DNA of 50,637 nucleotides from Halobacteriales archaeon (GTDB lineage Archaea > Halobacteriota > Halobacteria > Halobacteriales > Hikarchaeaceae): contig JAKURE010000004.1 of the NCBI GenBank assembly GCA_022450005.1, positions 1 through 50,637 of the forward strand, given 5' to 3'. Below the pieces are notes generated by a model, which saw only the letters and a list, made by a program, of their open reading frames with translations, was not told where the DNA came from and ran no database searches. Both the position numbers and the translations under genes were made by a program. Shown piece after piece: positions 4,835-6,844 of the stretch (its first letter is position 1; every line of letters starts with the position of its first letter).

Positions 4835-6844
4835 ATGGTTAGGAAAGTTGAGTTCCCAAAGAAAAAAGGCAAATTTGCCTGCTGGCTAAGCCGTGAGGAA
4901 GTAAAACACCTCATCGAACAATGTACAGAATCAAGAGACGAAGAAATAATTCTCACCCTTTTAGCCTCTGGTTTGAGAGTTCACGAAGCCTGTAAAGCTT
5001 CCTCGGAGGATATTTTTGAAGACGGTCGAGGTCTAATGATAAAAATTTGGGGTAAAAATTCCCAATACAGGGAAGCCCCCATTCCGGCCACCCTGAAAAC
5101 GGCCGACCTACCAATCACACGTAAATACAACGGAATCCACAGGCCCATTTCAACCAACACAGCTTTAGCATGGGTAAAAAAAGCAGGGAAAAACTTGGGA
5201 TGCCCAGAACTCTCACCACATGATTTACGTCGTTCCTACGCCTCGATCCTGCTTGAATCCAATATCGACCCGACCGTTATAATGGAATGGCTGGGCTGGA
5301 GTAGCTGGGAGACATTTCAACGATTCAATATGAACGTGGCAAATCCAGATTTTCAAAAACACGAACGAGAAAAACTGAATTTCCTACCCACAAAACAAAA
5401 AACAAAAAATGACTCCTCCGATATAATACGTGGAACCCGTTTCAGCGGAGGGCCTGCTAGAAACTTCCTCTCTTCAATGGATGTAGATCACCAAATCTTC
5501 GATGCAGATATCGCAGTAGATTTGGCACACGTAGTAATGTTAGCAGAAGAAAATATAATCTCCAAAGACAACGCCAAAGGCATACTAGAAGCTCTTTTTT
5601 CCATTCACGAAATGGGATTTGAAAGCTTACCTCCTGCTGAGGATGTCCACGCAGCAATTGAAACAGCGGTAGTAACTAAAGTTGGAGATTCTGGTGGGAG
5701 AATGCATACTGCTAGGAGTAGGAACGACGAAGTTTCAACATGCATTCGTTATCAATTGCGAAGTGACATTTTGTCTCTACTAAATTCGGTTTTATCTTTG
5801 CGAGAAACTATCCTTTCCATCGCCAAGAGCCACACCTCTACTCTAATCCCTGGGTTCACTCATCTACAAAGTGCACAACCATCAACCCTTTCTCATTGGC
5901 TCGTATCCTACTATGGATCTCTCGAACGGGACACTAACCGATTATTTGATGCTTATAGTCGCATCAATCTATCCCCTCTCGGATCTGCAGCCTTTGCAGG
6001 AACTCCCTTCCCCATCAACCGTGAACGAACCGCAACCCTCCTTGGATTTGAAGGTATAATAGAAAACACAATGGACGCCGTTTCTTCTAGAGATTTTTTA
6101 CTAGAATCTGCGGCAGCTCTGTGCTCTCTTTCTATTACATTCTCAAATATGTCTGAAGATTTAATTTTTTACTCAAATAAGAGCTTTGTTGAGATAGACG
6201 ATGATTACGCGTCTACTTCTTCTATCATGCCTCAAAAGAAAAATCCAGACACACTAGAATTAATACGAGCGGCTGCAGCAACAACCCTTGCCACCTTTTC
6301 CGGTACTTTTACAACTTTAAAAGGCCTCCCCCGTGCTTACAATAGAGACCTTCAATCAGCGACCCCTTATATTTGGAACTCCGTCGAAAAAATGATCGAT
6401 TCCGCAGAAATTCTCTCCAAAATAATAGAAACTTCAACCTGGAATGTCGAACTTCTTTCTAGTTCTGCAGGAGAGGGATTCTCCACCGCAACTGGCGTTG
6501 CCGATACCCTAGCTATGGCCGGAATACCCTTCCGAAAAGCGCACCAAATCATAGCAAAATCAGAAAGTAATTATGAAGATATTTCTTCAAATTTCAACGA
6601 AATAATGGGATCCCCACTCAGTGAATTTTGTACCCAGGATTCAATAGAATCTGCTTTAGATCCCCTCAAAAACGTCGATATGAGGGATTCATTAGGGGGC
6701 CCTTCGCCCACCATTGTTTTAAATTCAATTTCCAATGCTAAAAACAACCTAAAATCAGATTTTTCCCTCCACACGGCGCATAAAGAAAAAATAGACCAAT
6801 CAAAAGAAAAATTGATTCAAGAAGCTATGAGTTACTTGAAATAA
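4835..6844 (+). CDS. argH: tyrosine recombinase-like domain fused in frame to argininosuccinate lyase
   Basis: N-terminal ~190 aa: GLRVHE, IKIWGK, SPHDLRRSYAS and MEWLGWSSWETFQRF (tyrosine recombinase boxes). From about residue 193: SSDIIRGTRFSGGPARNFLSSMDVD..., GGRMHTARSRNDEVSTCIRYQLR and SSIMPQKKNPDTLELIR (ArgH signatures). No stop between them. Confidence 0.9.
   Translation: MVRKVEFPKKKGKFACWLSREEVKHLIEQCTESRDEEIILTLLASGLRVHEACKASSEDIFEDGRGLMIKIWGKNSQYREAPIPATLKTADLPITRKYNGIHRPISTNTALAWVKKAGKNLGCPELSPHDLRRSYASILLESNIDPTVIMEWLGWSSWETFQRFNMNVANPDFQKHEREKLNFLPTKQKTKNDSSDIIRGTRFSGGPARNFLSSMDVDHQIFDADIAVDLAHVVMLAEENIISKDNAKGILEALFSIHEMGFESLPPAEDVHAAIETAVVTKVGDSGGRMHTARSRNDEVSTCIRYQLRSDILSLLNSVLSLRETILSIAKSHTSTLIPGFTHLQSAQPSTLSHWLVSYYGSLERDTNRLFDAYSRINLSPLGSAAFAGTPFPINRERTATLLGFEGIIENTMDAVSSRDFLLESAAALCSLSITFSNMSEDLIFYSNKSFVEIDDDYASTSSIMPQKKNPDTLELIRAAAATTLATFSGTFTTLKGLPRAYNRDLQSATPYIWNSVEKMIDSAEILSKIIETSTWNVELLSSSAGEGFSTATGVADTLAMAGIPFRKAHQIIAKSESNYEDISSNFNEIMGSPLSEFCTQDSIESALDPLKNVDMRDSLGGPSPTIVLNSISNAKNNLKSDFSLHTAHKEKIDQSKEKLIQEAMSYLK
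5389..5416 (+). repeat. right copy of imperfect 28-bp direct repeat flanking the argG/argH insert
   Basis: CACAAAACAAAAAAcaAAAAATgACTCC, 25/28 identical to 4045-4072. Confidence 0.6.

Follow-up and report, generated by a model that had tools for sequence, protein, structure and literature searches.

The argininosuccinate lyase (ArgH) encoded in the window, by which we mean the whole 50,637-nt stretch of DNA analysed here, is fused in frame to an N-terminal tyrosine-recombinase catalytic domain that lacks its nucleophilic tyrosine. With about even confidence, we propose that the fusion arose through integration of a mobile element, that its recombinase domain is catalytically dead, and that purifying selection maintains this domain for a non-catalytic role, most likely DNA binding and plausibly autoregulation. 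A new role that does not involve cutting DNA appears probable because the sequence is still preserved by selection despite the loss of the tyrosine. The window belongs to a genome assembly (G000) of 1.01 Mb that is 71% complete, while members of the same order mostly have 2-4 Mb. From this size and its placement, the organism would probably fall within Marine Group IV (Hikarchaeia) and hence be marine.

The fused open reading frame (4835-6844, forward strand) encodes 669 amino acids, of which residues 1-184 form the recombinase catalytic domain and are joined to a complete ArgH. A Pfam scan of the protein returned PF00589 (Phage_integrase; residues 17-165, 65.8 bits against a cut-off of 27.1), PF00206 and PF14698 only, with the lyase and ASL_C2 domains filling the rest. 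Like other ArgH proteins of TIGR00838, the lyase part is complete and scores above the equivalog cut-off (458.6 against 279.5 bits); the fusion differs from them by the added 184-aa recombinase domain and a 15-aa linker. The AlphaFold2 model of residues 1-184 is confident (pLDDT 88), and its best PDB match in Foldseek is the archaeal recombinase XerA (5hxy). The model of the full fusion, built from a two-sequence alignment, is uninformative (pLDDT 32).

Features of the fusion locus in the window (coordinates are window positions)
Feature	Coordinates	Strand	Basis or remark
argG (argininosuccinate synthase), upstream neighbour	2853..4061	+	Integration presumably targeted its 3' end
Left direct repeat (attL-like), argG end and former argH start	4030..4072	+	Repeat comparison
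185-aa membrane-protein-like ORF between the repeats	4058..4615	+	At this site in the window genome only
Operator-like repeat 1, TTTTACAAACTATG	4723..4736	+	Kept in G002
Operator-like repeat 2, TTTTACAAACTATG	4744..4757	+	21 bp downstream of repeat 1
TATA box TTTATA	4806..4811	+	29 nt before the fused ATG (4835)
Inverted copy of TTTTACAAACTATG	4808..4821	-	2 mismatches; overlaps the TATA box
Tyrosine-recombinase catalytic domain, Tyr-less	4835..5386	+	Residues 1-184; PF00589; AlphaFold2; PDB match XerA 5hxy
Phe164 (TTC) and Asn165 (AAT), two candidate positions of the lost Tyr	5324..5329	+	phmmer; family profile
Right direct repeat (attR-like)	5375..5416	+	LNFL, the end of the integrase, is encoded by its first codons
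Linker	5387..5431	+	Residues 185-199; mostly encoded by the right repeat; fast-evolving
Ancestral ArgH start codon position	5402..5404	+	ATG in G002 and at the argH starts of G001 and G003; ACA in the window
ArgH (argininosuccinate lyase) part, apparently intact	5432..6844	+	TIGR00838

We examined the region of the nucleophile motif, WLGWSSWETFQRFNMNV (residues 152-168), in two alignment registers. A preliminary description of this DNA had proposed that the domain is catalytically dead, with Phe in place of the nucleophile. The Phe codon is indeed found where that description placed it (Phe164, TTC, 5324-5326), and in a phmmer alignment to archaeal XerA (PDB 4a8e) this residue faces the nucleophilic Tyr. 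A second register came from relatives taken from public collections and aligned; the resulting profile of 25 sequences, nearly all haloarchaeal, covers residues 7-184 with 110 bits. In its gapless C-terminal part, Asn165 (AAT, 5327-5329) faces the family Tyr and Phe164 faces the preceding His, such that T-F-x-x-H-Y of the relatives corresponds to T-F-Q-R-F-N in the fusion protein. Thus, the replacement by Phe holds in the XerA register, whereas the closest family points to Asn, and the identity of the replacing residue depends on the register. Both registers agree that the nucleophile position carries no Tyr. The alignment with haloarchaeal recombinases, which the preliminary description had named as a check, gives Tyr in 25/25 relatives that have a residue in this column, while the homologue at the same locus in the related genome G002 is Tyr-less.

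That description had also found no other Tyr between 5273 and the ArgH boundary, and this is borne out, as the only tyrosines of the domain are residues 78, 98 and 135, with none past residue 135. Tyr135 was rejected as an alternative nucleophile, since it directly follows the HxxR motif at a position that is Trp in 26 of 26 aligned relatives; 78 and 98 are the only others. The remaining catalytic residues reported as retained are in place: Arg48, Lys74, His129, Arg132 and Trp155 are kept in the fusion and invariant across the aligned relatives. The domain therefore has the Arg-Lys-His-x-x-Arg-Trp/His pocket of active tyrosine recombinases and lacks their nucleophilic Tyr, and we predict that it is catalytically dead. 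The G002 copy carries the identical Phe-Asn pair, so the loss of Tyr is not a sequencing slip in one genome.

We compared the locus between the window genome and three other genomes of the genus (G001, G002 and G003). The same fusion, 97% identical across its 669 aa, is present in one of the three, G002 (JAPYRM010000014.1); the two genomes were separately assembled and share this frame at a DNA difference of ~6%. The other two have argH without the insert: in G001 argG is directly followed by argH, and the short G003 contig ends in an uninterrupted argG-end/argH junction. In G002, the insert of ~0.7 kb is flanked by a 42-nt direct repeat (98% identical) made up of the last argG codons, the argG stop and the argH start, and the uninterrupted G003 junction agrees with this repeat except for 3 mismatches in 32. 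Target-like direct repeats around the insert and a matching empty site are the footprint to be expected from site-specific integration. In the window, the repeats have drifted (28 nt at 89%, 4045-4072 against 5389-5416) and the native ArgH ATG has become ACA.

The 185-aa ORF between the window repeats has no Pfam or PHROG match. A copy of this gene, 90% identical in DNA, is present in G001 (L157 6645-7181), where it sits between a ribonucleotide-reductase-like and a TPP-enzyme-like gene (names from sequence reading); these two flanking genes are adjacent, without the 185-aa gene, in G000, G002 and G003. It is apparently a single gene found at two unrelated insertion points.

These observations suggest a path to the fusion. 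A small integrative element whose integrase had no core-binding domain would have entered an attB site formed by the overlapping argG end and argH start, and site-specific recombination would have left direct repeats of ~42 bp. The integrase frame would then have crossed the att repeat without a stop to form an in-frame junction with argH, which would thereby have come under the integrase promoter. Since the right repeat encodes the LNFL ending and contains no stop before the ArgH start in the same frame, integration alone would make the fusion. If the G002 insert were circular, its integrase frame would read through the repeat and end at 201 aa, provided that the left boundary seen today is the initial one. 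Loss of the nucleophilic Tyr would have preceded the divergence of the two known lineages and would have abolished DNA cleavage in cis, and purifying selection would have kept the domain as the non-catalytic N-terminal part of ArgH. Its likeliest retained activity would be specific DNA binding, plausibly in autoregulation at the TTTTACAAACTATG repeats that overlap the promoter.

The distance between the TATA box and the fused ATG recurs at argG and at several other ORFs of the window, and such a spacing is that of leaderless archaeal genes. Neither of the internal in-frame starts, ATG at 5330 and GTG at 5336, has a TATA-like element in its -35 to -22 stretch. Because of this difference, the fusion is likely translated as one chain in the window genome, while in G002 ArgH might also be made alone, as its native ATG is still present. 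Upstream, the two exact copies of TTTTACAAACTATG are the only ones in the G000 assembly (71% complete) and look like operators; when the region was shuffled at constant composition, ~0.8% of the shuffles contained an inverted site with two mismatches. The 130 nt upstream of the fused ATG differ at 7 positions between the window and G002. Recombinases such as Cre are known to bind their sites, although they no longer cut them, when the tyrosine is mutated. It is conceivable, although we consider it doubtful, that the dead domain serves as a DNA-binding regulatory part of ArgH, such that the enzyme regulates its own gene at sites that came with the mobile element, with the ArgH part perhaps sensing metabolites of the arginine pathway. 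Against DNA binding and autoregulation, the repeats may simply be parts of a normal promoter.

Evidence for selection comes from comparing the window and G002. Over residues 1-184, 21 of the 24 nucleotide differences are synonymous and 3 are nonsynonymous (dN/dS 0.035). Neutral evolution was simulated under three transition biases, with 20,000 runs for each; ~16 changed residues were expected, and three or fewer were reached in 0/20,000 runs per setting. The ratio is 0.18 in the ArgH part (Fisher P 0.03 against the domain) and 0.75 in the linker. As both compared copies are without Tyr, the constraint acted on the Tyr-less protein, which favors the retained non-catalytic role considered in the preliminary description and argues against the early decay it had offered as an alternative. 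The main weakness of this test is that it rests on two sequences and 24 differences. Divergence along the locus is uneven, at 3-6% for the insert, 0-1% for a portion of argH and ~9-18% for argG. The lineages have therefore likely undergone some recombination, which matters for dates and not for the dN/dS ratio. The first part of argH (window 5601-6200 against L042) is 99-100% identical to G002, with flanks that differ by ~3-14%, which suggests recent recombination between the two lineages in this part.

The main rival to a non-catalytic role is a folding constraint: the domain would be an inactive passenger, welded to ArgH and supplying its promoter and start, from which selection removes changes that cause misfolding. 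This is a somewhat unlikely alternative in our judgement. It accounts for the selection without invoking DNA binding, and in the window ArgH, having lost its native start codon, stands behind the domain and the TATA box. Set against it, the domain is under stronger constraint than the ArgH part to which it is attached, and every active-site residue other than Tyr is kept, which goes beyond the needs of the fold. A very unlikely reading is that the domain is a relic on its way out, held in frame only as the lead into argH. The missing Tyr, the small G002 insert without other element genes and the fast linker would fit such decay, but three amino-acid changes where ~16 are expected under neutrality contradict it, and the domain is full-length, untruncated and confidently folded.

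A working recombinase is equally hard to credit. Flp subunits supply the tyrosine in trans among themselves, and the fusion could in principle act as a partner that contributes only its complete, strongly constrained Arg-Lys-His-Arg-Trp pocket; moreover, G001 has a full-length integrase elsewhere (L164 2305-3336, 343 aa, with a SAM-like and a catalytic domain). Against this, the available parts of G000 and G002 (71% and 78% complete) yielded no further PF00589 protein, the window repeats have diverged, and cleavage in trans is, to our knowledge, not known for this family. There is also a slim chance that ArgH is made as a separate polypeptide from an internal start, or that the contig is misjoined. 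The internal ATG and GTG and the native ATG of G002 would allow the former; however, the same 669-aa frame recurs in two genomes ~6% apart, the native start is lost in the window, and the internal starts lack a TATA-like element. Our preferred reading, an integration-born fusion kept for a non-catalytic role, has its own difficulties: the fusion is known from only two genomes, the ~0.7 kb insert of G002 is too small for a complete element, the uneven divergence points to exchange between lineages, the native ATG could give a separate ArgH in G002, and the closest free or viral relative found is only ~36% identical.

Dead recombinases that act as DNA-binding proteins are already known, while the literature searched yielded no fusion to a metabolic enzyme created by integration and kept by selection; likewise, no paper in the open-licence literature linked a tyrosine recombinase, argininosuccinate lyase and fusion. 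If the proposal is true, it would describe a direct route from a mobile element to a rewired host biosynthetic operon, and it offers a compact example, open to testing, of how a recombinase becomes domesticated in uncultured archaea.

We compared the domain with known recombinase systems. Its closest relatives are mostly haloarchaeal integrases of ~195 aa that contain PF00589 only and naturally have no core-binding domain. The preliminary description had correctly noted that this domain is missing; since the closest family has none and aligns end to end, the absence is ancestral and not a loss, and a truncated two-domain integrase was ruled out. The fusion domain and these relatives have in common end-to-end homology, the Arg-Lys-His-Arg-Trp site and a K-[LV]-x-[WF]-L ending. 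In contrast to them, it is only 26-36% identical, lacks the Tyr and, where relatives usually end in K-V-x-W-L-stop, has K-L-N-F-L and reads on into ArgH. Among free and viral proteins, searches of public collections found none more than ~36% identical to the fusion domain, and the phage records among the matches listed were integrases of bacterial phages or unannotated fecal phage records at ~31% identity or less. A tRNA lay within reach at 2 of 35 loci of relatives, in neither case at the integrase end. In at least one case, a short haloarchaeal integrase (L048 4959-5543) is encoded near a full-length one (7863-8912). The short relatives perhaps belong to the HSTV2-like or fam30 groups (PMC8371274).

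The domain has the fold of archaeal XerA (Foldseek 5hxy; phmmer 4a8e), but it lacks the N-terminal core-binding domain and the Tyr, and identity with XerA was ruled out by its score against NF040815 (73.4 bits, with an equivalog cut-off of 220). Suicidal archaeal integrases of the SSV1, pTN3 and pT26-2 types have their frame changed by integration at an att site that overlaps the integrase gene, and archaeal att sites are often 40-50 bp long (PMC8371274). If it arose as proposed, the fusion would resemble them in having an att site that overlaps the gene and a reading frame altered by integration; here, however, the overlap is at the 3' end and leaves the domain intact, whereas theirs are split, and the Pfam scan of the 669-aa protein found no Phage_integr_3 (PF16795), the domain of the SSV/pT26-2 type. 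A precedent for the preferred reading is TnsF, an inactivated tyrosine-recombinase protein that is the target selector of Tn6022-like transposons (PMC10293859). Both contain an inactivated tyrosine-recombinase domain, which in TnsF was co-opted for non-catalytic DNA targeting; TnsF has a zinc-finger region and a core-binding-like part and serves a transposon, whereas the domain described here is fused to a biosynthetic enzyme.
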